Below are positions 12,012 through 38,671 of a stretch of DNA of 64,000 bases, piece after piece. Source of the stretch: Chryseolinea sp. (GTDB lineage Bacteria; Bacteroidota; Bacteroidia; Cytophagales; Cyclobacteriaceae); assembly GCA_025923195.1 (NCBI GenBank), contig JAICGJ010000007.1:1-64000 (forward strand), written 5' to 3'. The position numbers and the translations under genes were made by a program. The notes under the pieces are model-generated. The model worked only from the letters and a program-made list of their open reading frames with translations. It was not told the origin of the DNA and did no database searches. How positions within the stretch are numbered: the first letter of the stretch is position 1; each line of letters starts with the position of its first letter.

Positions 12012-14747
12012 ATGAGAACTTCTGTGTTCGCTTTACTCTTCATTCTTGGCGGAGCAGTTGCTGTAGCACAAAAGCTCCAGGTAAAGGAATTGACTTGCGA
12101 ATATCAGGATAATCCGATCGGGATAGATGTTGCCGTCCCCCATTTCAGTTGGAAGTTGGTAACAACACAACGAGCAATAAAACAAAAGTCGTATGAAATC
12201 AGGGTAGGCCTAGATCCCAATGCCCTAGTAAAAGGACAAAACATTTTATGGCAGTCGGGAGTAACTCCGTCCGAGCAGTCTGTTCACGTAGCTTACGCCG
12301 GGCCCGGGTTAACCTCACGCCGCCGCTACTACTGGCAAGTAAAAGTATCTGACAACAACAATGCGTCCAGCGGCTGGAGTGAGGTGAAGTATTGGGAGAT
12401 GGGTTTGCTAGATGCGGAAGATTGGACGGCATCCTGGATTGAACCAGCAATAGAAGGCGATAGTGTTGGACGCCCGTCACCGATGTTGCGCAAAGACTTT
12501 CAGCTGCCGAATCCTGTCCGGTCTGCGCGTCTTTATATTACATCGCACGGACTCTATGAAGCCCATATCAACGGCCAAAGAATAGGCGATCAGTATCTCA
12601 CACCGGGATGGACGAGTTATAACAAACGGCTTCAATATCAGACTTTCGACGTCACCAAAATACTGAAGCAGGGACCCAATGCGACGGGAGTAATGTTGGG
12701 GGATGGTTGGTATCGCGGACACCTGGCATGGGAGAATAATCGTAACATTTATGGCAGAAATCTTGGGTTGCTATTTCAGCTTGAAGTGGAATACACCGAT
12801 GGTACCAGGGAAACAATTGCTTCAGACCAGAACTGGAAATGTTCCACTGGACCCATCGTTAAAGCGGGCATTTACTATGGTGAAGCATACGACGCACGTT
12901 TGGAAATTCCGGGATGGACACCGGCCGGGTTCGACGATCATGATTGGAAAGATGTGAGAGTCTTGAATGAAGGAAAGACAAATCTGGTGGCTTCATATGC
13001 TCCACCAGTTCGTAAACATGAAGTTTTCAAGCCAATCAGGATTTCAAAAAATAAGAAGGGAGAAACGATAATTGATTTCGGACAGAACCTCGTTGGTTGG
13101 ATCAAGCTGACGATTAGAGGGAACCCAGGACATAAGGTGACAGTGCACCACGCTGAGGTGTTAGACAAGCATGGAGATTTTTACACTGAAAATCTCCGGG
13201 CTGCAGACCAGGAAATTCAATATATCCTGAAAGGTGGAGGCGACGAGATCTATGAGCCCAGGTTTAGTTTTTTTGGATTCCGGTATGTCCGTGTGAAGGA
13301 TTATCCCGGTAATCTTACTGTCGATCAAATAGTAGCCATCGCGTTGTATTCGGACATGAAGCCTACTGGTAAGTTTTCCACCTCAAACCCATTAATCAAC
13401 CAACTGCAACGTAATATTCAGTGGGGGCAAAAGGGAAATTTTGTGGATGTACCTACGGATTGCCCCCAAAGAGATGAAAGGCTAGGCTGGACTGGCGATG
13501 CCCAGGCCTTTTGCAGGACGGCCACCTTTAATATGGATGTCGCGAGTTTTTTTATTAAGTGGTTGAAGGACCTTAGTGCCGATCAGACTGAGGATGGTCG
13601 AGTACCTTTCGTGGTTCCCAATGTGCTTGGAGAAAATGCCTCTGCCTCCGCTGGCTGGGCGGATGCAGCGACTATCATTCCCTGGAATTTGTATATGGCC
13701 TATGGCGATAAGAGAATTCTGGAGCAGCAATATAAGAGTATGAAGGCCTGGCTGGGTTTTGTTGAAAAAACCTCGCTGAATGATCTTTGGAATAGCGGAT
13801 TTCATTTCGGCGACTGGCTGTTCTACCGGCCCCTCGATGATAACGATGGCCGGGCAGCTGTAACAGACAAATATCTTATAGCGCAATGCTTTTGGGCGCA
13901 TTCAACGCAACTTATGATACAAACCGCCACCGTCCTGGAAAAAAAGGATGACGTAGTACATTATACCGATCAACTCAAGAAGATCAAGGATGCCTTTATG
14001 CGCGAATATTCAACAGAGAGCGGACGCCTTGTTTCAAGTACTCAAACAGCGTATGTGCTGGCTCTACAGTTCGACATGCTACCGGAAAGTCTGCGCGAGC
14101 AAGCGGCGCAGCGTCTGGCACAAAATATTGAATCCTATGGCAACCACCTGACTACCGGATTTCTTGGTACCCCTTACATATGCGAAGTACTTACCCGATT
14201 TGGTCATGAAGAACTGGCTTACACGCTATTAATGCAAGAGAGCTACCCTTCATGGCTCTACCCGGTTAAAATGGGGGCTACCACGATCTGGGAACGGTGG
14301 GATGGAATCAAAACAGACAGCACATTTCAGACGCCCGGGATGAATTCATTCAACCATTATGCTTATGGCGCGATCGGTGATTGGATGTATCGGAATATAA
14401 CAGGCCTTTCAGCGTTAGCGCCCGGGTATAAGGAAATCAAAATCAGACCCATCCCCGGTGGCAAACTGACGCAGGCAACGGCAGAACTGGTAACTCCTTA
14501 CGGATTGGCAAAGTCATCGTGGATGATACAGGACGGTAGATTCAGGTTTGATGTTATTGTCCCTGCCAACACTTCCGCAAATGTTATTTTACCCAACGCA
14601 GCGACAAAAAAAATAACGGAGAGATCCATTGACATTGGCAAGGTGAAAGTGATTAGGGAAATTACAGCCGTCGGCGCCGACGTCAGTGTAACACTGGGAT
14701 CAGGCTCTTATCATTTTGAATATCCCTTGACGCCACCTCAGCCATAA
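12012..14747 (+). CDS. Alpha-L-rhamnosidase, GH78, secreted
   Basis: 911 residues, the usual size. A signal peptide is present (MRTSVFALLFILGGAVAVAQ). Then follow the family's N-terminal beta domains, the (alpha/alpha)6 barrel with CPQRDERLGWTGDAQAF near residue 485 (the DER acid motif of GH78), and a C-terminal beta sandwich ending with ANVILP. It cleaves terminal alpha-L-rhamnose from plant pectin (rhamnogalacturonan) or flavonoid glycosides, in the periplasm or on the surface. It ends overlapping the convergent S1/P1 nuclease by 10 bases. No SusC/SusD pair is adjacent, so it is not in a full polysaccharide utilisation locus. Confidence 0.95.
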   Translation: MRTSVFALLFILGGAVAVAQKLQVKELTCEYQDNPIGIDVAVPHFSWKLVTTQRAIKQKSYEIRVGLDPNALVKGQNILWQSGVTPSEQSVHVAYAGPGLTSRRRYYWQVKVSDNNNASSGWSEVKYWEMGLLDAEDWTASWIEPAIEGDSVGRPSPMLRKDFQLPNPVRSARLYITSHGLYEAHINGQRIGDQYLTPGWTSYNKRLQYQTFDVTKILKQGPNATGVMLGDGWYRGHLAWENNRNIYGRNLGLLFQLEVEYTDGTRETIASDQNWKCSTGPIVKAGIYYGEAYDARLEIPGWTPAGFDDHDWKDVRVLNEGKTNLVASYAPPVRKHEVFKPIRISKNKKGETIIDFGQNLVGWIKLTIRGNPGHKVTVHHAEVLDKHGDFYTENLRAADQEIQYILKGGGDEIYEPRFSFFGFRYVRVKDYPGNLTVDQIVAIALYSDMKPTGKFSTSNPLINQLQRNIQWGQKGNFVDVPTDCPQRDERLGWTGDAQAFCRTATFNMDVASFFIKWLKDLSADQTEDGRVPFVVPNVLGENASASAGWADAATIIPWNLYMAYGDKRILEQQYKSMKAWLGFVEKTSLNDLWNSGFHFGDWLFYRPLDDNDGRAAVTDKYLIAQCFWAHSTQLMIQTATVLEKKDDVVHYTDQLKKIKDAFMREYSTESGRLVSSTQTAYVLALQFDMLPESLREQAAQRLAQNIESYGNHLTTGFLGTPYICEVLTRFGHEELAYTLLMQESYPSWLYPVKMGATTIWERWDGIKTDSTFQTPGMNSFNHYAYGAIGDWMYRNITGLSALAPGYKEIKIRPIPGGKLTQATAELVTPYGLAKSSWMIQDGRFRFDVIVPANTSANVILPNAATKKITERSIDIGKVKVIREITAVGADVSVTLGSGSYHFEYPLTPPQP

Positions 14748-15499
14748 ATATCATTCAGAACACCGGCCAGCCGGATGCCTGCTTGCAGCAAGCGGTATCG
14801 AACGATATGAAAATTCTCGTAAGCATACTTATAACCAAGTCGTCCATTTCCGTAACGATAGACCTGATCGCGGTAGCCTATGCTTTCCGTTGCCCAGTCT
14901 ATAACAGATGATTTTTGCCACAATGAAACCTCCGTTGCGTCGGGCTTTTCCAGGGACTCTGCGAGTTCCGTGAAGCTAAGCTTGGTATCATCGATCATCT
15001 CGCTATCCCATACTCGGTGAAGATTGCTTTCCGACCGGAACCACATCACTTTTATATCGTTACCTCCGCGATCGCTCCCAAGACCTACGTGCAATGGCTG
15101 ATGGATGTCGCCGACCAAATGAATCAGCATTTTCAAGTATTCGGTCTCGTCCCTTGGTTTCAGATTTCTTGTTTTCAGCGATGAGATCAGCCGTTCGATG
15201 GTTTCTACTATGTCACCGTTCTTATTCTTCTCGGTTTGCTGATATGTCATGCCTCCAGGTATCGTCACCCAATGCCAGTCGCTTGTATAATCATATAAGG
15301 AGTCTGAGCGTATATCGTCCATCCACGTGCTGGCCATCGCCAACGACTGACTACCCAGTATTCGTTGCAATTCTTTTTTTACTTTTTTCGAAATGTTCTT
15401 TTCAGCAACCCAACCAGTTACACGATGCCCCGTGGGACCCCATGCAAAACTGGTAAACATAATGAAAGTCAGCAGTAATGTCGTGACGCATTTTTTCAT
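14738..15499 (-). CDS. Secreted S1/P1-type zinc nuclease
   Basis: About 253 residues from the ATG at 15499, giving a signal peptide (MKKCVTTLLLTFIMF) that is cleaved just before WGPTGHRV. The mature N-terminal Trp binds zinc in this family. The zinc ligands are visible: Trp1, His in GHRV, Asp in WMDDIRSD, His in SDWHWV, then HLVGDIHQPLH and GGNDI, and RVWDSEMID. These enzymes cut single-stranded DNA or RNA and 3' phosphates, usually outside the cell for phosphate and nucleotide scavenging. An upstream start at 15550 would bury the signal peptide and is rejected. It overlaps the GH78 gene tail to tail. Confidence 0.94.
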   Translation of the reverse strand: MKKCVTTLLLTFIMFTSFAWGPTGHRVTGWVAEKNISKKVKKELQRILGSQSLAMASTWMDDIRSDSLYDYTSDWHWVTIPGGMTYQQTEKNKNGDIVETIERLISSLKTRNLKPRDETEYLKMLIHLVGDIHQPLHVGLGSDRGGNDIKVMWFRSESNLHRVWDSEMIDDTKLSFTELAESLEKPDATEVSLWQKSSVIDWATESIGYRDQVYRYGNGRLGYKYAYENFHIVRYRLLQAGIRLAGVLNDIYG

Positions 15500-15702
15500 G
15501 GGTCTAGTCGTTAATGATTGCGGTTGGTAAATGGATACCCTGTGGTGCACCGGGATTCTACATCAAAATTGAGTAAAATCTGAAGGCGGAAAAATCAAAC
15601 TTAAACAGTGGCGGAATAATTAACAACAAAGCCCAAAGTACTTCATTTTCGTTTATTCATTTGAGATAAGCCCATGAATTAAAATCTATATCTTAGTTAA
15701 GT

Positions 15703-16494
15703 ATGACACAAACCATTAAACTATCGGCGTTCCTCGTTGCCAATCAGCTTGACATTAAGGGGATCAAGTCGTTTCTTGACATCAAGCCCCTGGCAGATTC
15801 ATCCTCTGAATTATTTTATGCCTTCGGAAATGAAAAATATCAGTACTTCTTTAACTATGGTGTAATCGCTTTTGCGGGATATTCTGAGGATGAGATGAAG
15901 TGGGCCGTTAAGGCGGTTCAGGCATACCAAAGAAACCCATTCACCGCCTGGCTTAGAGACGATCATGAAATTTGCGTGAAAGAAGGGAGCGAGATAATCT
16001 TCAATTTTGATGAACTGATACTCGACAAAATTGATAGCAAAGTTTTCAGAATCTCAATGTTCAATCTTGCGCAGTCGGTCGCCCTTGACCATTATCATGC
16101 CGTCACCGAAAACCTACTTACGGAATTAAAAAGTTTTGCAACTCAGCTGGAGCTTACTGGCAAATTGAGAATCAGTCGCAAGAACATGATGCGTTTCCTA
16201 GGACGGGCCTTGAATACGCAAAACGAAATAGCCGAAAACATCTACATTTTCGATGCTCCTGATCAGGTTTGGGATGATGAATACCTTGACAAAGTGTATC
16301 AGGGCTTCATGAAGCACTTCGATCTGCGCGTCCGGTTTAGCGAAATTGAATACACTTTAAAGATCATAAACGACAATCTCTCCATCTTTCGTGAGATTAT
16401 TAACCAACGGGAAAGCAGTATGTTGGAGTTAATTATTATCGTTTTAATTTTGGTGGAAATTGTTGACCTGTTCATTACCAAATTATTAACATAA
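15703..16494 (+). CDS. RMD1/DUF155 family protein
   Basis: 263 residues. It matches the DUF155 (RMD1/Sif2) pattern: an N-terminal strand with KLSAFLVANQLDIKGIKSFL, a middle segment FYAFGNEKYQYFFNYGVIAF, and a C-terminal hydrophobic tail (ELIIIVLILVEIVDLFITKLL) that anchors the protein in a membrane. The eukaryotic relatives sit in the mitochondrial membrane and affect meiotic division and translation; bacterial members are uncharacterised. It is 33 bases upstream of the C39-like protease and on the same strand, so it probably belongs to the amidoligase cassette. Its role there is unknown. Confidence 0.85.
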   Translation: MTQTIKLSAFLVANQLDIKGIKSFLDIKPLADSSSELFYAFGNEKYQYFFNYGVIAFAGYSEDEMKWAVKAVQAYQRNPFTAWLRDDHEICVKEGSEIIFNFDELILDKIDSKVFRISMFNLAQSVALDHYHAVTENLLTELKSFATQLELTGKLRISRKNMMRFLGRALNTQNEIAENIYIFDAPDQVWDDEYLDKVYQGFMKHFDLRVRFSEIEYTLKIINDNLSIFREIINQRESSMLELIIIVLILVEIVDLFITKLLT

Positions 16495-16506
16495 GATGAC
16501 CATTGG

Positions 16507-16514
16507 AAAGGAGG
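16507..16514 (+). promoter_or_regulatory. Unusually strong Shine-Dalgarno site
   Basis: AAAGGAGG lies 13 bases before the ATG at 16528. Such strong ribosome-binding sites are uncommon in this window, where most starts have none. It favours the ATG at 16528 over the TTG at 16519, which would sit too close to it. Confidence 0.6.
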
Positions 16515-16527
16515 GGGGTTGCCGGGC

Positions 16528-17271
16528 ATGAAGAAAGAGCTCGTCCTGGACTTTGACATTCAGGCGCAACCCGATGATGTTACTTGCGGACCCACATGTC
16601 TGCAGGCGTTGTACAATTATTATGGTGATGTTGTGGGGCTCAAGGAAGTAATTCAAGAAGTTAAGCAATTGAAGTTTGGTGGAACGCTGGCCGTCATGCT
16701 AGGTAACCATGCGCTCAAGCGTGGGTACAAAGCGCGGATATATACATATAATTTGAATGTATTCGACCCGACGTGGTTTAAGCACTCTTCTAAAAAGATG
16801 ATTCAATTTCTGCGGGAGCAAATGGAATTTAAGCGAAAGCGGAGGAAATTGAAGATTGCCTCCCAGGCTTATATTAAGTTTCTCCAATCGGGTGGTGAAG
16901 TTCGAAACCTGGAGCTGGATGAAACACTTATTAAGAATTACTTGAAAAAATCAATTCCCATTCTTACTGGGCTAAGCGCTACTTATCTTTACGGCTCTGC
17001 CCGCGAGATACCTGAATTTGATATTTACGATAGCATAAAAGGAGAACCCGCCGGGCACTTTGTTGTCATTACTGGATTTGACGAAGAGAAGAACTGTGTT
17101 CACATCACCGATCCGAATGAGCCAAATCCCTTAGGTCAAGGGAAAGTTTACAGCGTAAGTTTTGCCCGTCTCATTAACAGCATCATGCTGGGGATCGTTA
17201 CCTACGACGCCAATTTGTTGATTATCGAACCAAAAGAAAAAAAGGCAAATGCCAAAACTCATAATAGTTGA
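16528..17271 (+). CDS. C39-like (papain-type) peptidase domain protein
   Basis: 247 residues from ATG 16528. The cysteine protease triad is visible: DDVTCGPTCLQA (Cys20), GHFVVITGF (His177) and HITDPNEPN (Asp195). No transporter domains are attached, unlike bacteriocin-exporting C39 proteins. A basic insertion (KRKRRKLKIA, around residue 95-105) separates the Cys and His regions. There is no signal peptide, so it acts in the cytoplasm. It overlaps the RimK-like gene by 23 bases, so the two are translationally coupled. In similar clusters such proteins may trim, or transfer acyl groups onto, the ligase product; that role is an inference. Confidence 0.88.
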   Translation: MKKELVLDFDIQAQPDDVTCGPTCLQALYNYYGDVVGLKEVIQEVKQLKFGGTLAVMLGNHALKRGYKARIYTYNLNVFDPTWFKHSSKKMIQFLREQMEFKRKRRKLKIASQAYIKFLQSGGEVRNLELDETLIKNYLKKSIPILTGLSATYLYGSAREIPEFDIYDSIKGEPAGHFVVITGFDEEKNCVHITDPNEPNPLGQGKVYSVSFARLINSIMLGIVTYDANLLIIEPKEKKANAKTHNS

Positions 17272-18694
17272 AAATCCTGACCATTGGCAATTCAACCTCG
17301 CAGATGTAGAAGTGATCACACCCTCCCGGTACATTTCTGGTGAAGCTTATCCAGAAACCAAGGGCGTCAAGGTTATTAATCTGTGTAAGTCGTTTCAATA
17401 TCAAAGTATCGGATACTACGTATCTTTACTGGCCGAAGCTCGGAAGCATAAAGTGCTCCCTGGAATCTCAACGATCCAGGACCTTCGCTTTCCGTCGATA
17501 TTGCGAGAAGATTTTCAGGACTTCGATGACCTCATACAAAATTCATTCAAGAATGTAACGCAGGATAAGGTCGAGTTCGATATTTATTTTGGGACTACGC
17601 AAGAGGAAAATCTGAATAAGCTTGCGAAGCAGCTATTTCAGTACATCCCTGCGCCCTCGCTAAGCGTTACCTTTAGCAAGAGGAATAAATGGGTGCTACA
17701 AAGCATCAAACCCCTTAGCTTCGGCGAGGTTCCGGAAGGGGAAATGCATTTGCTGCATGCAGCCGCAGAAAAGTACCTTCAGCGCAAACGTGAGGTGCGC
17801 CCGGACAAAAAGAAATACGATCTCGCCATTCTCGTTGACCCAAACGATCCTAACCCGCCTTCAGATGAAAAGGCTCTGCAGAAATTCATCAAAGCAGGGG
17901 ATCAACTCGGGTTCTATGTCGAGGTAATAACCAAGGATGACTTCGATGAGCTGATCCAGTTTGATGCACTGTTTATTCGCGAAACTACTTTTGTCAACCA
18001 CCATACCTTCAGATTTGCAAAGAAGGCGCAGTCACTCGGACTCGTTGTAATAGATGATCCGGATTCAATCCTAAAGTGCACGAATAAAATTTATTTGAAT
18101 GAACTCCTTACCGCGAATAAAATCCTAACGCCCGTCTCCTACGTAATTAGTAAAGATAACTTTAAGAGTTTACCAAAGAAGCTTGCATATCCCTTCATTT
18201 TGAAACAACCGGACGGTGCATTTAGCAAAGGCGTTTTTAAAATTAAGAACGACGAGGAATTTAGACAGGCGTGCACTACCATGTTTCAGAAATCGGAGTT
18301 GCTGATAGCCCAGGAGTTCCTGCCTACTGCGTTCGACTGGCGCGTTGGGATTCTGGATGGGCAACCTTTATTTGTATGCAAGTATTTTATGGCGTCCGAA
18401 CATTGGCAAATCGTGAACTGGAGTACAGACAAACAACAACAGGAGGGAGCTGTTGAATGCGTAGCGTTTTATCAGGCACCAGCAGAACTTATTTCTACTG
18501 CGCTTGAAGCAACCGCATTGATCGGCCAGGGACTGTATGGCGTAGATATGAAAGAAGTAGATGGTAAATTTTATGTGATAGAAATCAACGACAATCCGAA
18601 TATTGATGCGGGTATAGAAGACAAGATCATGAAGGATAAGCTATATTCGGTTATTATGGAAGTATTCTTAAATAAGATCAAAGCTGATAAGTGA
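17249..18694 (+). CDS. RimK-type ATP-grasp ligase with RLAN domain
   Basis: 481 residues. The N-terminal ~150 residues match the RimK-like ATP-grasp N-terminal (RLAN) type. A pre-ATP-grasp domain (KKYDLAILVDPNDPNPPSD, near residue 190) comes next, then the ATP-grasp fold: YPFILKQPDGAFSKGVFKI (nucleotide lid), LIAQEFLPTAFDWRVGIL, and FYVIEINDNPNIDAGIED with the metal-binding Glu/Asn. These enzymes form amide bonds between a carboxylate (via acyl phosphate) and an amine, as RimK does when it adds glutamates to ribosomal S6. Substrates are not identifiable. It overlaps both neighbours, so it is tightly coupled to the C39-like and GCS2 genes. Confidence 0.92.
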   Translation: MPKLIIVENPDHWQFNLADVEVITPSRYISGEAYPETKGVKVINLCKSFQYQSIGYYVSLLAEARKHKVLPGISTIQDLRFPSILREDFQDFDDLIQNSFKNVTQDKVEFDIYFGTTQEENLNKLAKQLFQYIPAPSLSVTFSKRNKWVLQSIKPLSFGEVPEGEMHLLHAAAEKYLQRKREVRPDKKKYDLAILVDPNDPNPPSDEKALQKFIKAGDQLGFYVEVITKDDFDELIQFDALFIRETTFVNHHTFRFAKKAQSLGLVVIDDPDSILKCTNKIYLNELLTANKILTPVSYVISKDNFKSLPKKLAYPFILKQPDGAFSKGVFKIKNDEEFRQACTTMFQKSELLIAQEFLPTAFDWRVGILDGQPLFVCKYFMASEHWQIVNWSTDKQQQEGAVECVAFYQAPAELISTALEATALIGQGLYGVDMKEVDGKFYVIEINDNPNIDAGIEDKIMKDKLYSVIMEVFLNKIKADK

Positions 18695-19938
18695 TGACAC
18701 AGCCTCCCCGAATTCATCTTTTCCAAGGATATGGTGTAGAGCTTGAATACATGCTTGTCGATCGCGATTCATTAAATATCACCCCTATCACCGATGAATT
18801 ATTGAAACACGAATTAGGAGTCTACGGCAGTGATTATGAAAACGGTATGGTGACCTGGTCGAATGAGCTTGTCCTACATGTCGTTGAACTTAAATCTACC
18901 AAACCCGAGCTGGATTTTCAGTCACTGGAGGGTAAGTTCTCTGAAAATGTAAAAACGATTAATGCGATTTTATCGAAATGGAATGCCATGCTGATGCCGA
19001 CGGCGGCGCATCCGTTTATGAACCCTCTCACCGAAACCAAGATCTGGCCCCACGAAAACAATGAAGTGTATGCGATCTATAATAAGATCTTTGATTGTCG
19101 CGGCCATGGATGGTCTAATCTTCAGAGTACTCATCTCAACCTTCCGTTTTATGACGATGAAGAGTTTGCCAAACTTCATGCTGCTGTTCGGCTGGTTTTG
19201 CCTCTTCTCCCCGCCCTGTGTGCAAGTTCACCCATGCTGGATGGTAAGCTAACGGGGTCGCTGGATACAAGATTAAAATTTTACAAGACAAACCAGTCGA
19301 AGATCCCTTCCATCACGGGTAAAATAATTCCGGAAGCCGTCTTTTCAAAGCGGAACTATCTCAATACCATTTACGAAAAGATCAAAAGCGATATTGCGCC
19401 ATACGATCCAAACGAAGAGTTAAATGCGATATGGGTAAATTCCCGGGGGGCTATTCCGCGCTTTGACCGGGGCTCGATCGAGATCAGACTGATGGATATC
19501 CAGGAATGTCCAGCAGCAGATCTGGCAGCACTTACCCTGGTGATTGAAACCATTAAAGCGCTGACCGCAAACATGTTTACAAGTCTTGAGGCCCAGATGA
19601 AATGGAAGACCGAGGCATTGGCCCAACTGCTCGATCAAACGATACGGTCGGCCCAACTTGCAGTGCTGGATAACGTGGAATATCTGGCTTTATTTGACTA
19701 TCCTGGGAGCAAAGCCACAGCCAGTGAGTTGTGGCAACACATCCTTCAGGAATTATTGAAGAAAGGCAACAAGGTGCTTGAAGCATACCGGAAGGAATTG
19801 AATATTATTATAAAGGAGGGAACGCTTGCTTTTCGAATCGTTAAGGCTATCGGCAAGGATCAATCTAACGACAATATTGTTAGCGTTTATCGTAAACTTT
19901 GCGACTGCTTAGCGCATAACAGAATGTTTTTGAACTGA
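18694..19938 (+). CDS. GCS2-type glutamate-cysteine ligase-like amidoligase (first copy)
   Basis: About 414 residues from ATG 18694, which shares one base with the RimK-like stop; GTG 18691 is the alternative. It carries the GCS2 glutamine-synthetase-like fold: GVELEYMLVDRDSL (metal-binding Glu), then STHLNLPF, then SRGAIPRFDRGSIEIRLMD with metal and substrate residues, near residue 245-262. GCS2 enzymes join the gamma- or alpha-carboxylate of glutamate to an amine. Pairing with an ATP-grasp ligase suggests two successive amide bonds. It is unlike the second GCS2 protein at 37520, so the two probably make different products. Confidence 0.92.
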   Translation: MTQPPRIHLFQGYGVELEYMLVDRDSLNITPITDELLKHELGVYGSDYENGMVTWSNELVLHVVELKSTKPELDFQSLEGKFSENVKTINAILSKWNAMLMPTAAHPFMNPLTETKIWPHENNEVYAIYNKIFDCRGHGWSNLQSTHLNLPFYDDEEFAKLHAAVRLVLPLLPALCASSPMLDGKLTGSLDTRLKFYKTNQSKIPSITGKIIPEAVFSKRNYLNTIYEKIKSDIAPYDPNEELNAIWVNSRGAIPRFDRGSIEIRLMDIQECPAADLAALTLVIETIKALTANMFTSLEAQMKWKTEALAQLLDQTIRSAQLAVLDNVEYLALFDYPGSKATASELWQHILQELLKKGNKVLEAYRKELNIIIKEGTLAFRIVKAIGKDQSNDNIVSVYRKLCDCLAHNRMFLN

Positions 19939-20098
19939 GAAGTTTGAACTTCCACAACAAGCAATCCCAGCTGAATATATGGAATCACACCTAATGCCAA
20001 TGCTTTCATCCAAACGGGGATTAGGATATCGTGTGAAAATTGTTGACATATTAGTGCGTTTGATCAAAAGATGTCCGATGTGATTTAAGTTTAAGCAG

Positions 20099-20785
20099 AT
20101 GAACCTTGTCATCACTTGTGAGCATGCCGGGAACCAGGTGCCTGATTGTTATCAACACATTTTTTCCAACTGCAAAGATGTATTGGAGTCACATCGCGGG
20201 TATGATCCGGGTGCGTTGGAGATCGCCAGGTTCCTTGCGATGGAATGCAGCGCTCCTTTATTTATTTGCGAAACGACCAGACTGCTGATTGAACCAAATC
20301 GTTCGATTGATAGCCCAGAATTGTATTCTTCTTATTCACAGAAGCTTTTCGAAACAGATCACGAGGCGATTCTAAGACAATATTACTATCCGCATCGCAA
20401 TGGTGTTGAAGAAGTGATATCTAAGGTTTCAAAACCTGCTTTGCATCTTTCTATTCACACATTCACCCCAATTCTCGATGGCGACGCGAGAACCGTTGAC
20501 ATCGGAATCTTATATGACCCCGGCCGAAAATCTGAAAGGGAATTTTGCAGGTATCTCATGGATGGCCTCGAACAAAATCTTCCGTATCTGCAAATAAAAT
20601 TCAACGAACCTTATCTAGGCACGGACGATGGTCTCACAACGTATCTCCGGACGAAGTTCAGCGATCGCGATTATCTGGGCATCGAAATCGAGATAAATCA
20701 AAAATATATCGGCTCTGAAAAATGGGAATTGATTTCAGTGGGCCTTAAAGAGGTACTTTTTGATCTTTTGTATGCAAGTCGGTAG
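20099..20785 (+). CDS. N-formylglutamate amidohydrolase family
   Basis: 228 residues. The family pattern is visible: LVITCEHAGNQVPD at the start (metal-binding His/Glu region), ESHRGYDPGAL near residue 38, and a later LHLSIHTFTP segment. Members hydrolyse N-formyl- or related N-acyl-glutamate in histidine breakdown, but no hut genes are present. Coming 160 bases after the GCS2 gene on the same strand, it more likely hydrolyses or recycles an N-acylated glutamyl intermediate of the amidoligase pathway (inference). The C-terminal stretch ends with a helix (VLFDLLYASR). Confidence 0.9.
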   Translation: MNLVITCEHAGNQVPDCYQHIFSNCKDVLESHRGYDPGALEIARFLAMECSAPLFICETTRLLIEPNRSIDSPELYSSYSQKLFETDHEAILRQYYYPHRNGVEEVISKVSKPALHLSIHTFTPILDGDARTVDIGILYDPGRKSEREFCRYLMDGLEQNLPYLQIKFNEPYLGTDDGLTTYLRTKFSDRDYLGIEIEINQKYIGSEKWELISVGLKEVLFDLLYASR

Positions 20786-25163: not shown

Positions 25164-26084
25164 ATGTTCAAAATCAGGTACTGGATTAAAGATTTTTTCG
25201 GTTTCCCCCGGTCACAAGTTAATGGCTTTATAATTCTATTAGTGCTTGTAGCACTATTCTTGTTTTCAGAGCCCGTGTGGCATTGGTGGAGCAGCGGCCG
25301 CCCCGTGGATTTGACTGCTGACGTTGCTAAACTTGACAGCCTGGCGGCGTTGTGGTCAAACGAAGAAAACAATCCAAGCCAGCCTAAAACGGCAGAGAGT
25401 GCGAAAACTCCTTTCTATTTCAATCCCAACAATTGCACCTTGGACGAGTTTATTGCATTGGGATTTTCGCAGAACAGTGCGGCTCGGGTCATTAGATACA
25501 GGGAAAAGGGCGGGAAATTCAGGATAAAGTCGGATCTGCTAAAAATTTACGGTGTGGACTCTGCGTTCTATCAGCGGATTTACTCCTTCATTACGCTTCC
25601 GGACATTGCGACGCGAGTAAAGCAAAAGGCAAAGAGATATCCGACTAAAGATCCTAGCGCTGCTAAAGAGATCAGGCAAAAGTTTGATCTGAACAGGGCC
25701 GACACGTCAGCATTAAAAAAGATTTATGGTATTGGTGAGAAATTGTCTTTGCGCATCATAAACTACAGGGAAGTGTTAGGAGGATTTGTAACTATGGATC
25801 AGCTTAAAGAAGTCTACGGACTGGATTCTTTAGTCATCTATCGCTTGTTGGAAAACGCTGAGATCACGGATGAGTTTCAGCCAAAGAAAATAGATATTAA
25901 CACCGCTACCGAAAAACAGCTCGCGATGCATCCCTACATGAACAAGATTGCTAAAGCCATTGTCTCTTATCGATTCCAGCATGGAAATTTTAGTACGCTG
26001 GACGAAATTCGCAATGTCGTAAATTTGAACGATGAAACTTTTCGGAAAATTGCTCCTTATTTAAGCGTTAGTGACGATATGTGA
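25164..26084 (+). CDS. ComEA-type helix-hairpin-helix protein, membrane-anchored
   Basis: 306 residues from ATG 25164; the TTG at 25137 is less likely. After a short basic N-terminus and one membrane helix (FIILLVLVALFLF) comes a linker, then three tandem HhH units at roughly 100-150, 185-235 and 245-295 (for example FDLNRADTSALKKIYGIGEKL and DINTATEKQLAMHP). This is the ComEA pattern, which binds double-stranded DNA. ComEA proteins take up DNA across the envelope. It overlaps or nearly overlaps the SF1 helicase gene, so the two are co-transcribed; a DNA-uptake or envelope DNA role is possible. Confidence 0.88.
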   Translation: MFKIRYWIKDFFGFPRSQVNGFIILLVLVALFLFSEPVWHWWSSGRPVDLTADVAKLDSLAALWSNEENNPSQPKTAESAKTPFYFNPNNCTLDEFIALGFSQNSAARVIRYREKGGKFRIKSDLLKIYGVDSAFYQRIYSFITLPDIATRVKQKAKRYPTKDPSAAKEIRQKFDLNRADTSALKKIYGIGEKLSLRIINYREVLGGFVTMDQLKEVYGLDSLVIYRLLENAEITDEFQPKKIDINTATEKQLAMHPYMNKIAKAIVSYRFQHGNFSTLDEIRNVVNLNDETFRKIAPYLSVSDDM

Positions 26085-26089
26085 ACGAT

Positions 26090-29000
26090 ATGACACATAA
26101 TTGGTCACGGAAAGAAATTCAAGTACCTTATACTTTAATGCCAGCAGCAGCAAAAAATATTTTGCAGACTTATCTACGGAGGCTTACAAATCTCTCCGGG
26201 AACAACAGATCACTGCTTTTGCTTCGTCTTCATGCGGAACAATTAATGGATCTGCATAAACTCAGTTTTCTAAATGGTGAAAAATCCTTTGAGATTATAA
26301 ACGCACTGATAGCTGGAAAAAGCAAAAAGCTTTGCCCGATCCTTGACAGCAGGATGGAATCAAGCAATGAGGAAAGCAATAGACTGAAAAAACTACATCG
26401 GATCGACCACTTCATTTTTGAGGAGCGGGGCTCCAACGACTTGCATGTGGGATGGCCTTTCGTCAAGGGAAAATTTTCTGATGGCACTGCCGTGCGATGT
26501 CCCTTGATTTTCTTTCCGGTGACCATTGTACAGGAAGGTCAATATTGGGTCTTACAGCCCAGGGAGGATGCCGGCATAACACTTAATAAATCTTTCTTGC
26601 TGGCTTTCGCATTTTATAACAAGGTAAAGCTGGAGGAAGATCTCCTGGACACAAACTTTGAGGACTTTGAAAAGGACAGCACTGCCTTCCGTACACAACT
26701 TTATCAATTGCTTGATGGCAAAATCGAGATCAATTTCAATTCTGAAAATTTCAAGGATGAACTCAACCCTTTTCAGGAATTCAAGAAGGAATCCTTTGAA
26801 ACCAAACATCGGAATGGTGAACTGAAACTGTTTCCGGAGGCAGTGCTTGGCATATTTCCGCAAGCTGGATCTCAGCTAGTGCCTGACTATCTACACCTAA
26901 TTGGAAGCAATTCAGTTCACGATTTGGAAATATTCTTTGCGGAAAAGAATGGTGTGCGCGATCCGGCGTTGACCAATAGCCCGCACACCCTGAACACGAA
27001 CCACGTTAGGGAGGAGAAAGTGTTTGCTCCATTTGATCTTGACGCATATCAGGAGAACGCGATCAAATGCATCAAGAATGGAAACTCAATTGTCGTACAA
27101 GGACCTCCTGGTACAGGAAAGTCGCAGCTCATTTGCAACATTCTGTCCGATGCCATGGCAAATGGAAAGAAGGCACTTCTAGTGTGTCAGAAAAGAGCGG
27201 CGCTGGATGTTGTATACGAGAGATTAAAGGAAATAGGTCTGAGCGATTTTTTAGGGCTTGTACATGATTTTCGTAATGACCGTAAAGAAATATATTCAAA
27301 AGTTTCCACGCAGGTAGATCACGTCGAAGAGTATCGTACGCTTAACCGTAGCGTTGATGTAATTCACACGGAGAGGAAATTTTATCAGGTTTGCAGGCGA
27401 ATTGATCAGATTTCGGAAGAACTTCAGGAATTCAAGGAAATGTTATTTGATGACCAGGAATGCGGCCTGTCAGTGAAGGAATTGTATCTCACGTCAGACC
27501 TTCAGGAACCTTCTATAAATATACGGCAGGAATATCAATACTTTACTTTTTCCACGCTCGAGGATTATTTGAGGAAGCAAAGAATGTACGTACAGTATGC
27601 ATCGAAGTATGAGGGGTCTACTTACGTTTGGCGAGATCGAAAATCATTTGCTTCTTTTCAGCCGTCCGATGAGAAGGAAATCGAGAAAATTCTTTCATAC
27701 ATTCCAAAGTATCAACAAAAGATCGGTAGTGCCATTGAAAAGGAAATAGGCACAAGGCTTAATCTGCAAGACTGTGAAGCACTGTCGCTGAAGGAAGCGG
27801 ATATTCTGGGAATGATTGGTGTTTTGAAAGATGAGGAAACCTTTCGGTATTTCCAGGCGATGTGGGACGAGAATGACGACGAAACAAGTTTGCTGTGGCT
27901 CTCCAATGTGGAGCGGATGGCAATGAATTGCTTTGAGGGAGAAAATCCTGAGGTAACAATTCCCAATAACCAACTTGGTGTCGTCCAGGAAGCGTTGCAG
28001 CATCGTATGGATGCACGCACTAACCTGGTTCGATGGATCATGTGGGAGATGTTTTCTAAGGAGAAAGGTTTAGTTAAACGTGTGCTGGTAGCGAACAGGC
28101 TAGCCTATAATAGAGTCGGATTGAATATTTTAGAACAGCGCATAGACAGTAGGTTGAACCTGGAGCATCACCTGACATCGCTGAAAAAGAAAATGTGGCT
28201 TGCCAACATACCGATGGACTATCAAAAGGCATCCTTGCAAACTTGGTTTGAAAAGCAAAAGCTGGCTACGAGGGCAAAATTGATTTTTAATACGTTGCGC
28301 GAGGTGAAGGATTCCATTCTTCTCCCACGGTATAACCGACAGGAATTTATTTCGCTCATGCGAAGATTGCTTTTCATCGTCAACGACATTCCTGCAAAAA
28401 AATTGGAATGGTTAAAGTACCTTACCCGTTACCAGATCAGTCAGCTGATATTTGATCCCGCCCTCGAGAAAGAATTCATTAGAACCTTGAAATCTGATTT
28501 TGACAATCTGGCCGAATATGACAAACTGAAGGAGCAGGTTTCGTTTCACGAGAAGGAAGTTATTACTAAGCTCTTTGATCATTTGCAGGAATGGGACGCC
28601 GATAAAATGGAAAAGCTCTTGCAGAATACGCTTCGCCTGACCTGGATCGATCACATTGAAACGAAATATCCCATTCTTCGTGCCGTTTCCTCCATGAAGA
28701 TGGACACACTGCAAAAGGAGCTGCAGCAACTCGTAGCGGAAAAGCAATCGCTTTGCAGGGAAATTTTACTGGTGCGGGCGAGGGAATATGTATACGAACG
28801 GTTGGAGTATAACCGTCTAAACAATCTGGTTACCTACCGTGATCTGCACCATCAGGTTACCAAGAAGAAAAAGCTTTGGCCACTTCGAAAACTTATTGCT
28901 GAATTTAGTCATGAATTATTTCAGCTGGTGCCTTGCTGGATGGCTTCGCCGGAGTCAGTGTCTGCCATATTCCCCATGGCCGAGTTGTTTGATATCGTAA

Positions 29001-30175
29001 TCTTCGATGAGGCCTCCCAGTGTTTTTCAGAAAAAGGTATTCCCGCCATGTACAGGGGCAAGCAGGTATTGGTTGCAGGTGACGACAAACAACTTCGGCC
29101 TAGTGAATTGTACCAGGCCCGATGGGATGAGGAGAATGAGAATCCGGATGTAGAGGTGGAATCTTTATTAGAATTATCGAAACGGTACCTTTCCTCAGTT
29201 CACCTTCAAGGTCACTACAGGAGTCAGACAATTGAATTGATCGATTTTTCCAATACCTATTTTTATGACGGCCGGCTTCAGTTGTTACCCCATCGCGATG
29301 TACTCAATCTGGCCGAACCTGCAATTCAATACTGCAAGGTCGACGGGACATGGGAAAACCATACAAACATAGTAGAAGCACGCGCTATTGTTCAGAAGAT
29401 TTTTGAGATCCTTGAAAAGCACCCGCGAAAGGAAATTGGGGTGGTCACCTTCAACGCGCCACAGCAGATGCTGGTGTTGGATTTACTAGAGGCGGAGTCA
29501 GCGAAAAATGGCAAGTCGATTCCTGCAAGTTTGTTTGTAAAGAACATTGAGAATGTTCAGGGCGATGAGAAGGATATTATAATCTTTTCTATTGGTTATG
29601 CTGCCGGGAAGAGAGGAAGGATGAGCATGCAATTTGGGAGTCTTAACGCAGCTGGAGGCGAGAATCGTTTAAACGTAGCGATTACACGTGCGCGCGAAAA
29701 AATAATCGTAGTAACCAGTATCTGGCCCGAGCAGTTAAAAGTTGCCAGCGTAAAGAATGAAGGTCCCAAACTCCTCCGCAAGTACCTGCAGTACGCCCAG
29801 TCGGTGGACGAAGGTAAATACCGCCCCCATTTAGGCCAAACGCTAACGAGGAATAAAGACTGGTATTTAAGCAGCCGGATCAAACAGTGGGGAGAAGATC
29901 GTTTGAATAAATTCATATTTCAAACAGATGCGTTGCCATTCTCGGATGTTGGCGTTTTGCATGGTAACCAACATTTGGGGATAATTCTTACAGATGACAC
30001 ACGCTATTTTTCAAGCTTGTCGGTGAAGCATTCCCACGCCTACATTCCTGCTATACTATCACAAAAGAATTGGAAATATCAGATGGTCTATAGCCGCAAC
30101 TTTTGGAAAGACCGTGAAAAAATCGAGAGCGGATTAATGGTTTTTATTGGGACCCAGGCGGATCAAAAAGGATAA
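26090..30175 (+). CDS. Very large SF1 (UPF1-like) helicase with unusual C-terminal domain
   Basis: About 1361 residues from ATG 26090 (GTG 26081, overlapping the upstream stop, is an alternative). An N-terminal ~330-residue region of unknown fold precedes the helicase. Motif I GPPGTGKS is near residue 340. Motif II DIVIFDEASQ is near residue 970, separated by about 620 residues that include long coiled-coil-like stretches. Motif III AGDDKQLRPS, motif V VQGDEKDIIIF and motif VI NVAITRAREK follow. The last ~110 residues (LGIILTDD, then KNWKYQMVYSRNFWKD) resemble a Vsr/MTES_1575-type nuclease with its acidic site changed. It tracks on DNA or RNA with ATP. The partner is the HhH gene directly upstream. 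Confidence 0.9.
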   Translation: MTHNWSRKEIQVPYTLMPAAAKNILQTYLRRLTNLSGNNRSLLLLRLHAEQLMDLHKLSFLNGEKSFEIINALIAGKSKKLCPILDSRMESSNEESNRLKKLHRIDHFIFEERGSNDLHVGWPFVKGKFSDGTAVRCPLIFFPVTIVQEGQYWVLQPREDAGITLNKSFLLAFAFYNKVKLEEDLLDTNFEDFEKDSTAFRTQLYQLLDGKIEINFNSENFKDELNPFQEFKKESFETKHRNGELKLFPEAVLGIFPQAGSQLVPDYLHLIGSNSVHDLEIFFAEKNGVRDPALTNSPHTLNTNHVREEKVFAPFDLDAYQENAIKCIKNGNSIVVQGPPGTGKSQLICNILSDAMANGKKALLVCQKRAALDVVYERLKEIGLSDFLGLVHDFRNDRKEIYSKVSTQVDHVEEYRTLNRSVDVIHTERKFYQVCRRIDQISEELQEFKEMLFDDQECGLSVKELYLTSDLQEPSINIRQEYQYFTFSTLEDYLRKQRMYVQYASKYEGSTYVWRDRKSFASFQPSDEKEIEKILSYIPKYQQKIGSAIEKEIGTRLNLQDCEALSLKEADILGMIGVLKDEETFRYFQAMWDENDDETSLLWLSNVERMAMNCFEGENPEVTIPNNQLGVVQEALQHRMDARTNLVRWIMWEMFSKEKGLVKRVLVANRLAYNRVGLNILEQRIDSRLNLEHHLTSLKKKMWLANIPMDYQKASLQTWFEKQKLATRAKLIFNTLREVKDSILLPRYNRQEFISLMRRLLFIVNDIPAKKLEWLKYLTRYQISQLIFDPALEKEFIRTLKSDFDNLAEYDKLKEQVSFHEKEVITKLFDHLQEWDADKMEKLLQNTLRLTWIDHIETKYPILRAVSSMKMDTLQKELQQLVAEKQSLCREILLVRAREYVYERLEYNRLNNLVTYRDLHHQVTKKKKLWPLRKLIAEFSHELFQLVPCWMASPESVSAIFPMAELFDIVIFDEASQCFSEKGIPAMYRGKQVLVAGDDKQLRPSELYQARWDEENENPDVEVESLLELSKRYLSSVHLQGHYRSQTIELIDFSNTYFYDGRLQLLPHRDVLNLAEPAIQYCKVDGTWENHTNIVEARAIVQKIFEILEKHPRKEIGVVTFNAPQQMLVLDLLEAESAKNGKSIPASLFVKNIENVQGDEKDIIIFSIGYAAGKRGRMSMQFGSLNAAGGENRLNVAITRAREKIIVVTSIWPEQLKVASVKNEGPKLLRKYLQYAQSVDEGKYRPHLGQTLTRNKDWYLSSRIKQWGEDRLNKFIFQTDALPFSDVGVLHGNQHLGIILTDDTRYFSSLSVKHSHAYIPAILSQKNWKYQMVYSRNFWKDREKIESGLMVFIGTQADQKG

Positions 30176-30816
30176 ACTACTTTTGGCGAACGAGTGGTAA
30201 TTAACTGTGCCTCACCATTAATTCTTCCATGTAGAGGATAATAACAAGATAGGATGGAATTCATCTTTTCCCGTCCGGAAGCGATGCGAATAGCCTTTTC
30301 GCGTATCTCCATATCCAGGATGTGTAATAACGGTTGGTCTACCAGCATCAAGTGCGGAAATGCATCCAGCAAACCTTCATCCCACACATGGTAGTACCGG
30401 ATCAGATCATCCGGATAGATAGTGGTGCGGTCAGTACCTTCCTCTGGGACCACTTCGAAAGGTTCATCCAAATTTAGGTATCCATAATCATCTGTCAGCT
30501 GCTCTCCAGGGCTGATATCACGGACTGCGATTTCGAACTCATAAGCTGTCGTCACACAATTGGATTTCGAACTATGATTTATAAATCTGGCGTTGTCCCA
30601 GCACAGAATATAATTGCCCTGAGGGTTGCGATAAGTATAAGTATCCAACACCTTCTGATAGAGCGGATCCATATTCCTAATTTGCTCGGGAGTAAATGAT
30701 CTGTCAAGTTTGTCAAGCGCCCACGTAATAGTCCCTTTCGGTATAAACTTCGTTGCAACAACGCCATATCCAATTTTCTCACTGATAAATTGGAGTTCAG
30801 TATGGGGATGAATCAT
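30163..30816 (-). CDS. SET-domain lysine methyltransferase-like protein
   Basis: 217 residues. The SET core is visible: an N-terminal strand YGVVATKFIPKGTITWALD, the pseudoknot RFINHSSKSNC with the NHS motif near residue 81, and the SAM/lysine-channel segment GEQLTDDYGYLN. No pre- or post-SET zinc clusters are seen. SET proteins methylate lysine on proteins using S-adenosylmethionine; bacterial members have mostly unknown targets. It overlaps the helicase gene by 13 bases tail to tail. The glnII terminator at 30878 separates it from the gene behind it, so it has its own promoter. Confidence 0.87.
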   Translation of the reverse strand: MIHPHTELQFISEKIGYGVVATKFIPKGTITWALDKLDRSFTPEQIRNMDPLYQKVLDTYTYRNPQGNYILCWDNARFINHSSKSNCVTTAYEFEIAVRDISPGEQLTDDYGYLNLDEPFEVVPEEGTDRTTIYPDDLIRYYHVWDEGLLDAFPHLMLVDQPLLHILDMEIREKAIRIASGREKMNSILSCYYPLHGRINGEAQLITTRSPKVVYPF

Positions 30817-35533: not shown

Positions 35534-37441
35534 CTAGCTGACCATATATTTTCTCCACCACCATTGGAAGACAATTAACCCCCAGATGCGGGCGTGTATA
35601 TCTTTAGGGTTAGCAGAGAAGAGTTGACGTTTGAGTTTATCGATCTCCCGGTAATCGAATACAGATTGTTCCTGTATAAATTGTTCTGACAAGAGATCGT
35701 CGACAATCATGGATTTCATTTCATTCTTAAACCATTTTAACAACGGTACTTCAAATCCCTTCTTGGGCCGGCGGTATAACTTTCTCGGTAGGAAATCCCT
35801 GAATGCATCCCTGACGATTCGTTTGCGAACGCCGTTCTTGATTTTGTACTCCACAGGGAGCGAAAAAACAAAATTCACCAATTCGTAGTCCAAAAATGGA
35901 ACGCGCACTTCTAAGCCATTGGCCATACTCATAAGATCTACCTTGGTCAGCATGTCATTTGGGAGAACTAGGTTCATATCCGTGAAAAGTATGTCGTTTA
36001 TATTCTCCTTGTCGGGAAGGTATTGCAGGATTGCCTTTCGCCTCGGAAAGAAATCCTTTAACCACATATTGATCCGGAGATCAGGGTGAAGCATTAGCAG
36101 GGTTTCATCCTTGTTGGCGAACCCAGCCCATTGCCAGTACCGGTCCTTGGATGATAATTTCATTCCTTCGCTAAAACGCGACAGTTGCCTGGCCTTATTG
36201 GAGATAGACCCGCTCCGGGATTGGGGAAACAACTTCCAGAGCGGACTTAACGCGGTAACTAAGCTCTCTTTAAATCCGCCGTTAATTATCCTATTAAATG
36301 CCGCATGCTTGTTATATCCCGCAAACATTTCATCCGCTCCATCGCCAGATAGGGCAACCGTTGCATGCTTTCTTGTTTCCTTGCTGAGAATATAGACAGC
36401 GATAGCTGATGAGTCTGCGAACGGTTCATCAATGTAGTCGAGTATTGAATTCAGGTGTGCGTACAGATCATTATTCGTAAGTGAAAAGGCAGTATGCTTC
36501 GTTTTAAAGTGCTTTGCTACGAGTTTTGCATAGTGTGTTTCATCAAAAAATTTCTCATCCTTGAATCCGATAGAGAAGGTATGAAGGTCAGGCTTGTGCT
36601 TGCTGGCAAGACCGGTAATAATTGAAGAATCGATGCCCCCGCTCAAAAAGGCGCCCAGGGGCACATCTGAAACAAGCCTGCGTTGAACGGAAGATTCCAA
36701 TAACTGTTTGACTTTATCCTTGGCCGCTGTGTAGGAAATGTTGCACTTGTCAGCCGCCTCACTATTGTAAGGTATTGCGTAGTAAGCCTGAATGTCCATC
36801 TTCTGGCGGCTAACGGTCATATAATGGCCCGGCATGAGTTTTTTTACATTACTGAGAATAGTGTCTGGTGCAGGAATATAGTTTAGCTGAAGGTACGTGT
36901 AAAGTGAGCTGTAGTCCAGATTTTTTTCAATTCCATACTGCAAGATTGATTTCATCTCTGAAGCAAATAGAAACTTGTCTTCATCAAAAAGATACAGCAG
37001 TGGTTTAATTCCGAACCGATCGCGCGCCAGAAAAAATGTTTGTTCAACTCTGTCATAAACACAAAACGAAAAGAAACCGTTAAGCAGTGACAAGCACCGA
37101 TCCTTATGTCGTATATAAAGCTTCAAGAGTACCTCAGTGTCACCGCGAGAAAAAAATGGGACGCCCTGTGACTCAAGGTCCTTTCTTAAGTCTGCAAAAT
37201 TGAATATCTCACCGTTAAATACGATGCAATAGCGTTTTGATTCATCCCACATGGGCTGGTTTGCAACTGCGGATGTGTCCAGTATCGACAGTCTGCGATG
37301 GCCAAGTCCGACCCATTCGTCGGTGTAAATGTCCTGGAAATCGGGACCCCGTTTTTGCAACGCCATAGTGGCATTGGTTATCTGGATCTTATTGAACTTG
37401 CCAACAAGGTTGAATGCGAACATTCCAGTAATACCACACAT
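35534..37441 (-). CDS. asnB: Glutamine-hydrolysing asparagine synthetase
   Basis: 635 residues. The N-terminal glutaminase domain begins MCGITGMFAF with the nucleophile Cys2 and carries GLGHRRLSILD and NGEIFN. The synthetase domain follows with the ATP pyrophosphatase loop LSGGIDSSII near residue 265 and LSGDGADEMFAGY. It transfers ammonia from glutamine to an aspartyl-AMP. AsnB paralogues of this length often occur in exopolysaccharide or peptide pathways and amidate other acids, so the true substrate is open. It is divergent from a GCS2-type ligase only 78 bases away, which supports a specialised role. Confidence 0.92.
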   Translation of the reverse strand: MCGITGMFAFNLVGKFNKIQITNATMALQKRGPDFQDIYTDEWVGLGHRRLSILDTSAVANQPMWDESKRYCIVFNGEIFNFADLRKDLESQGVPFFSRGDTEVLLKLYIRHKDRCLSLLNGFFSFCVYDRVEQTFFLARDRFGIKPLLYLFDEDKFLFASEMKSILQYGIEKNLDYSSLYTYLQLNYIPAPDTILSNVKKLMPGHYMTVSRQKMDIQAYYAIPYNSEAADKCNISYTAAKDKVKQLLESSVQRRLVSDVPLGAFLSGGIDSSIITGLASKHKPDLHTFSIGFKDEKFFDETHYAKLVAKHFKTKHTAFSLTNNDLYAHLNSILDYIDEPFADSSAIAVYILSKETRKHATVALSGDGADEMFAGYNKHAAFNRIINGGFKESLVTALSPLWKLFPQSRSGSISNKARQLSRFSEGMKLSSKDRYWQWAGFANKDETLLMLHPDLRINMWLKDFFPRRKAILQYLPDKENINDILFTDMNLVLPNDMLTKVDLMSMANGLEVRVPFLDYELVNFVFSLPVEYKIKNGVRKRIVRDAFRDFLPRKLYRRPKKGFEVPLLKWFKNEMKSMIVDDLLSEQFIQEQSVFDYREIDKLKRQLFSANPKDIHARIWGLIVFQWWWRKYMVS

Positions 37442-37519
37442 GGTTTTTCACTTTTAAAGGGAAAGTTAGAAAGTTTGGTTTAGGATTGTATATTGAAATT
37501 CTTCTTACTGTATTTCTGG

Positions 37520-38671
37520 ATGAAGAAAGAACAAATTGGCGGGTTAGAATTTAATAGTAACTCCAATGAACTTACACTGGGCGTTGAAATGGAGTTGCAG
37601 GTCCTGGATGCCGACAGCCTCTTGTTAACGCCTCGGGCATCCGAAATAATTGAACTAACTGACGATAATAAGATCGTACCCGAGTTTTTTCAGAGCACGA
37701 TCGAGATTGTCTCGGGTGTTGGTAAAACCGCTCACGAGGTTTATGGGGATCTGAGGTCATCCATTTACAAATCATATGTCAAGGCGAATCAGTTGAATAT
37801 GAGACTTGGCTCCTCAGGTACCCATCCGTTGGCTGATTATCGCGAACGACTTGTGACGCCTTCCAAACGATATCATGATTTGATAGACCGCAATCAATGG
37901 GTTATCAGGAGGATGGCTGTCTACGGTATGCACATACACCTCGGCATGCCAAGCGGCGATGCATGCATCCGTTATAACTACTTTTTCATGCATTTCTTGC
38001 CCCACATACTTGCATTGTCAGGGAGCTCACCCTTCTGGCAAGGTATGTATACGGGATTATCCTCTTGCCGTCCTACAACCTACGAAGCTTTACCGACAGC
38101 CGGCATGCCTTATCTCGTGAAGAATTGGCATGAATTTCAGAGGCTCTACTCTTTTTTGTTGAAATCAAAAGCCATCGAGAGTATAAAAGACCTTTGGTGG
38201 GACCTGAGACCGAGTCCGCAGTACGGCACACTGGAACTTCGTTTTTGCGATGAACCTGCGACACTGAAGGAAGCCCTGGGAATCATCTGCTTTGTTCACG
38301 CACTGGCACATTGGTTTCGGGACCATGAGGTTGAATGGAATCATTCACACACTCCAATGAAACATTGGATACTCCGTGAAAATAAATGGAGAGCCATCCG
38401 TTACGGGCTACACGCACAGATCGTGGCAGCTCGCAATGGCAATACCAGGTCACTTTATAAAGACATCCAGGATTGGTTAGTGAAGTTGGCTCCTTATATA
38501 AAAGAGCTGAAGTACGATGAGCATGTAAATGTTGTAAGGGAAATTCTTGAAAAAGGTAATAGCTCCGAACGTCAATACAAAATCTTCGAGTCCACCCATG
38601 ACCTCAAAGAAGTAATTCGGCACAACTTGAGGGAGTTTGAATCGAGTCAGCCGCATTGGCTCCCCCCTTAA
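37520..38671 (+). CDS. GCS2/YbdK-type carboxylate-amine ligase (second copy)
   Basis: 383 residues from ATG 37520; a TTG at 37493 is the other option. The GCS2 fold shows TLGVEMELQVLDADS (metal-binding Glu residues), then GMHIHLGMP near residue 140 with two His, and a later YGTLELRFCDEP. This is the YbdK subgroup, which has weak glutamate-cysteine ligase activity in E. coli; its natural substrates are unknown. It faces asnB divergently and overlaps the following convergent gene by four bases. It differs from the GCS2 at 18694 by lacking that protein's RFDRGSIEIR segment. Confidence 0.92.
   Translation: MKKEQIGGLEFNSNSNELTLGVEMELQVLDADSLLLTPRASEIIELTDDNKIVPEFFQSTIEIVSGVGKTAHEVYGDLRSSIYKSYVKANQLNMRLGSSGTHPLADYRERLVTPSKRYHDLIDRNQWVIRRMAVYGMHIHLGMPSGDACIRYNYFFMHFLPHILALSGSSPFWQGMYTGLSSCRPTTYEALPTAGMPYLVKNWHEFQRLYSFLLKSKAIESIKDLWWDLRPSPQYGTLELRFCDEPATLKEALGIICFVHALAHWFRDHEVEWNHSHTPMKHWILRENKWRAIRYGLHAQIVAARNGNTRSLYKDIQDWLVKLAPYIKELKYDEHVNVVREILEKGNSSERQYKIFESTHDLKEVIRHNLREFESSQPHWLPP

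Follow-up and report, generated by a model that had tools for sequence, protein, structure and literature searches.

Genes in the cassette region

The window analysed here is a stretch of 64,000 nucleotides from a Chryseolinea sp., part of a draft assembly of 379 contigs. Checking of the open reading frames between positions 15703 and 20785 indicated that five of them are real and lie in one direction, and a Pfam search of the window proteins placed all five domains above the Pfam cut-offs:

15703..16494, + strand: RMND1/Sif2-like protein of the DUF155 family, hydrophobic at its C-terminal end (PF02582, 102 bits); a lineage-specific neighbour outside the core
16519..17271, + strand: C39-like papain-fold cysteine peptidase, cytosolic (PF13529, Peptidase_C39_2, 48.9 bits against a cut-off of 24)
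17249..18694, + strand: RLAN domain with a RimK-like ATP-grasp ligase (PF14401, 149 bits; PF08443, 31 bits)
18691..19938, + strand: GCS2-family (gamma-glutamyl) ligase (PF04107, 80 bits against a cut-off of 21)
20099..20785, + strand: FGase-family (N-formylglutamate amidohydrolase-like) hydrolase (PF05013, 72 bits)

The sequence-only reading had described five genes in one direction with overlaps of 23 bases and 1 base, and both the reading frames and the Pfam matches bear this out. The longer overlap lies between the C39 and RLAN-RimK frames. The C39 frame opens with TTG (16519), an ATG at 16528 being the likelier start, and neither a signal peptide nor a hydrophobic leader was seen in its protein sequence. 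The GCS2 frame opens with GTG (18691); counted from the ATG at 18694, it overlaps the RLAN-RimK stop codon by a single base. The FGase gene follows after a gap of 160 bases. The hydrophobic C-terminal segment of the DUF155 protein looks like a candidate membrane anchor.

Searches for other functions gave little. The five proteins had no anti-phage match in PADLOC, a single weak PHROG match concerned the ATP-grasp only, no structured RNA was found, and the 5 matches to the Bacteroidota promoter consensus, against 2.6 expected, are uninformative. Elsewhere in the window, a large DUF4011/AAA helicase (26081-30175) gives a strong match to PDC-S37, a candidate defence model. The window also has another GCS2 gene, of the YbdK-like kind (37493-38671, 160 bits); it is divergent from an asparagine-synthetase-like gene (35534-37441) and shows almost no sequence relationship to the GCS2 of the cassette.

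Extent and conservation of the cassette

Among 247 sampled genomes of the same phylum, RLAN was found in 31, and the RLAN regions of the 30 other genomes were compared with the window. C39, RLAN-RimK, GCS2 and FGase recurred there in one order and in differing surroundings. A further sample comprised 80 named loci, the best 80 of at least 589 relatives; their 16 phylum-level labels were taken from record titles, and many are metagenome-assembled genomes. In this sample, whose rates describe this subfamily, C39 directly precedes RLAN-RimK in 66 of the 80 loci and GCS2 directly follows it in 70, with FGase further downstream in 46. We take GCS2 to be listed among the neighbours in the Pfam entry for RLAN. 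Intergenic gaps in the cassette are about zero or negative, and fusions between cassette domains were not seen in the named loci. FGase was not seen in the remaining 34 loci, at most 11 of which are too short downstream to tell, and its absence from several whole genomes indicates that it is dispensable for the chemistry of the cassette. The most constant pair is RLAN-RimK and GCS2, C39 and FGase being sometimes missing.

No further conserved neighbour appeared among these best 80 of at least 589 relatives, be it a transporter, a thiol-handling enzyme or a target gene, and no conserved small frame for a carrier or precursor peptide was found within about 700 bases. The cassette proper therefore consists of C39, RLAN-RimK, GCS2 and FGase, whose order is kept by very distantly related bacteria. 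Since this order recurs in unrelated genomes, the association is far beyond chance. Evolutionary distances of the cassette proteins correlate modestly (Spearman 0.24-0.45), a correlation confounded by taxonomy. At one locus of genome G179 (L033:5794-8513), the RLAN-RimK and GCS2 genes are each broken into overlapping partial frames, which suggests frameshifts or sequencing errors.

DUF155 behaves differently. The window's own clade is the one lineage in which it was found linked to the cassette, apart from a looser linkage in Reichenbachiella. Of the sampled genomes from other families, 10 have a DUF155 gene, and just one of these also has RLAN, on a different contig. This distribution rules out DUF155 as a core member, and it is a lineage-specific local addition. 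Thus the earlier proposal of a conserved cassette of amidoligases and hydrolases, to be checked by its gene order in other Bacteroidota, stands for the four genes from C39 to FGase but not in its five-gene framing. Scattering of the genes in relatives, which had been named as grounds for giving it up, was not observed for C39, RLAN-RimK and GCS2 and, less strictly, for FGase. Conservation of an S1/P1 nuclease gene (14738-15550, divergent from DUF155) next to the cassette is confined to the window's clade (9 loci).

GCS2 is a replaceable part of the cassette, exchanged for GNAT in some RLAN neighbourhoods. In 30 plus 74 informative loci (divided 21 to 9 and 70 to 4 between the two partners), none of the 104 having either enzyme beside RLAN-RimK has both. 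FGase accompanies GCS2-type loci in 59 cases and occurs once without GCS2. GNAT takes several forms: in about 10 loci an RLAN-RimK protein fused to GNAT occurs on its own, one locus has a GNAT-C39 fusion beside RLAN (L062), and separate GNAT-containing proteins adjoin RLAN in L083 and L129 and on a plasmid of Azospirillum. On the tree, the main GNAT clade sits among GCS2-type members and just two GCS2/GNAT changes are needed; the exclusivity is thus only weakly independent and its Fisher values are not to be taken at face value. According to PMC10318531, Iyer et al. 2009 predicted neighbourhoods of RLAN/RimK-like ATP-grasps with GNAT and a papain-like peptidase. As far as this citing paper describes them, they share with the present cassette an RLAN-RimK ligase, a papain-fold enzyme and an adjoining second amide-forming enzyme, but here GCS2 and FGase are present, C39 is free-standing and GNAT is lacking.

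Predicted enzymes and their characterised relatives

The predicted structure of the RLAN-RimK ligase (pLDDT 88) was searched against known structures; the matches concern the ATP-grasp part, which fills the match list. The nearest PDB entry is ArgX with LysW and glutamate (Z 28.9), followed by LysX (28.5) and RimK (about 27), whereas D-Ala ligases reach at most 24.6 and glutathione synthetase 22.4. Residues K280, K319, R365, D433, E445 and N447 are invariant in 89 of 89 sequences. The ligase is accordingly predicted from its model to have an ATP-grasp fold of the RimK/ArgX/LysX kind, with ATP, metal and substrate residues conserved. The contacts of Pseudomonas RimK with poly-glutamate include R64, S14, R189 and N262 (PMC10092738). 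A sequence-profile alignment that includes E. coli RimK places these at the invariant R244, S205, R365 and N447, and as read here it shows no conserved residue matching two other contacts, S7 and R8.

A canonical S6 ligase is disfavoured: the cassette ligase scores 62-64 bits against TIGR00768 (RimK), far below the cut-off of 143.4, and the genome encodes a separate canonical RimK (249 bits, contig C103). Action on ribosomal S6, which the sequence-only reading had accepted as a refutation, is weakened by that separate RimK and by the 63.5 bits of the window's own ligase. Compared with the RimK/RimB system of Pseudomonas, the cassette likewise has a peptidase partner for its ATP-grasp, which is of the glutamate-adding clade and shares substrate-site residues, but its ligase carries an extra RLAN domain, GCS2 and FGase are additional partners, and the peptidase is a cysteine rather than an aspartic enzyme. 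ArgX and LysX, which act with the carrier LysW, are the nearest solved structures; the cassette differs in its RLAN domain and in having no conserved LysW-like small frame nearby.

The C39 protein belongs to the Cys-His-Asp triad peptidases by its PF13529 score and by its residues, C23, H180, D198 and Q17 being invariant in 78 of 78 sequences. Its model (pLDDT 91) matched phytochelatin synthase with a glutathione acyl-enzyme at Z 16.5, C39 peptidases at 15.9 and PeiR at 15.1, which is a near tie, and a Pfam search up to E 1 gave no match of the protein to phytochelatin synthase (C83, PF05023). We rejected a bacteriocin-exporter C39 peptidase, since the protein is free-standing (about 230-290 aa) in nearly all loci and has no conserved transporter neighbour.

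Assignment of the second ligase to GCS2 follows from its PF04107 score and motif residues: E17, E19, E66, K68, R260 and E264 are present in 87 of 87 sequences, H148 in 86 and R266 in 85. Equivalence to YbdK or glutamate-cysteine ligase was rejected, as the protein reaches 49 bits on the NCBIfam equivalogs against 371 at best. Glutathione and phytochelatin synthesis (GCL, GshB, phytochelatin synthase) resembles the cassette in combining a GCS2-type ligase, an ATP-grasp and a papain-fold enzyme, but the ATP-grasp of the cassette is nearer RimK/ArgX than GshB and its C39 has no sequence match to phytochelatin synthase.

In FGase, the family residues (H, D, R, NR, H, N, E), which alignment shows to be common to HutG, are invariant in 57 of 57 sequences, except D177 (54 of 57). 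The predicted catalytic residues of all four cassette enzymes are thus essentially invariant. A HutG N-formylglutamate deformylase was rejected: the protein, the only FGase found in the genome, scores 72 bits, adjoins GCS2 and has no histidine-degradation context. FGase members of 230 bits in relatives adjoin genes that, judged from their starts, resemble either histidine ammonia-lyase or a formimidoylglutamate deiminase.

A different cassette in Bacteroidota joins MATCAP (PF08014, the tubulin tyrosine carboxypeptidase family), FGase and a GSH-S ATP-grasp (L160:6478-11375; L162:5504-9168), and GSH-S and FGase matches lie close together in about 12 sampled genomes. There too, FGase has ATP-grasp ligases and a member of a peptidase family as neighbours, but the ATP-grasp and peptidase families are others and GCS2 is missing. 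A D-Ala-ligase-like ATP-grasp fused to a SET domain adjoins one such cassette (L161:10317-11792); the window has a lone SET protein (30163-30816).

Possible roles of the cassette

No experimental description of the cassette was found among the open-access papers searched; studies of RimK/RimB, R2K ATP-grasps and papain-like families exist (including PMC10092738, PMC12239564 and PMC10318531). As no gene for a carrier, a precursor, a transporter or a target is attached, the simplest reading is a small glutamyl, peptide-like metabolite that the cassette would produce and turn over in the cytosol by a glutathione-type logic. We hold this tentatively, at a probability of about 0.45, and infer the substrates, the directions of the steps and the product as follows. 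Characterised GCS2 enzymes use free glutamate and small amines, and the cassette GCS2 would activate free glutamate with ATP and join its gamma-carboxyl to an amine. RLAN-RimK would activate a carboxylate with ATP and add an amino acid; by analogy with RimK, ArgX and LysX, this is probably glutamate or an amine resembling it. The C39 thiol enzyme may form an acyl-enzyme with the product, followed by hydrolysis or transfer, as phytochelatin synthase does with glutathione. Where present, FGase would cleave an R-CO-NH-Glu amide; as this chemistry reverses the RimK-type addition of glutamate to a carboxylate, it would recycle or trim the product.

For a glutamyl metabolite we counted the conserved order, the invariant residues, the kinship with ArgX, LysX and RimK, the failure to detect GshB or GshF in the draft genome of 379 contigs, the phytochelatin synthase match of the C39 model, tied with C39 peptidases, and the second pairing of FGase with an ATP-grasp. 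Counted against it were the S7/R8 mismatch, the losses of FGase, the missing PF05023 match and the want of a travelling transporter or thiol enzyme. A bolder version, which we consider improbable, makes the product a widespread and so far undescribed gamma-glutamyl peptide cofactor with a glutathione-like role in bacteria without GshB and GshF, C39 being its transpeptidase or hydrolase.

The main rival is reversible protein glutamylation, which we judge unlikely but serious because RimK, ArgX and LysX, the nearest relatives of the ATP-grasp, all act on C-terminal glutamates of proteins. The ligase/protease pairing is like that of RimK/RimB (PMC10092738, PMC12239564). The additional RLAN domain could bind a protein, and the failure to find a small precursor gene nearby fits as well. 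Against this speak the lack of a target gene among the conserved neighbours, the canonical RimK encoded elsewhere in the genome, and the free glutamate and small amines on which characterised GCS2 enzymes act. Amine protection appears improbable: GCS2 would mask an amine as a gamma-glutamyl amide, RLAN-RimK would elaborate it, and C39 and FGase would deprotect it. In this reading, GNAT versions would put an acyl group on that amine instead, and the scheme as a whole would be analogous to the glutamyl mask of butirosin. The mutual exclusion of GNAT and GCS2 and the near confinement of FGase to GCS2-type loci agree with masking, as does the papain-fold BtrH acting in butirosin assembly (PMC10318531); but the exclusivity amounts to two switches on the tree, and FGase would have to attack a gamma-amide, unlike the known N-acyl-Glu chemistry. 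That two of the four enzymes are hydrolases could also reflect degradative salvage of glutamyl or N-acyl-glutamyl compounds, the ligases serving other pathways. This is very improbable, since ligases cost ATP and make poor degraders, and the two ligases are the most constant pair while the hydrolases are the enzymes lost.

What had been a vague neighbourhood is now assayable, with its boundary (four genes, not five), its GCS2/GNAT swap and its probable chemistry delimited. An order kept across very distant bacteria, together with preserved catalytic residues, suggests that the product or modification is widely useful.
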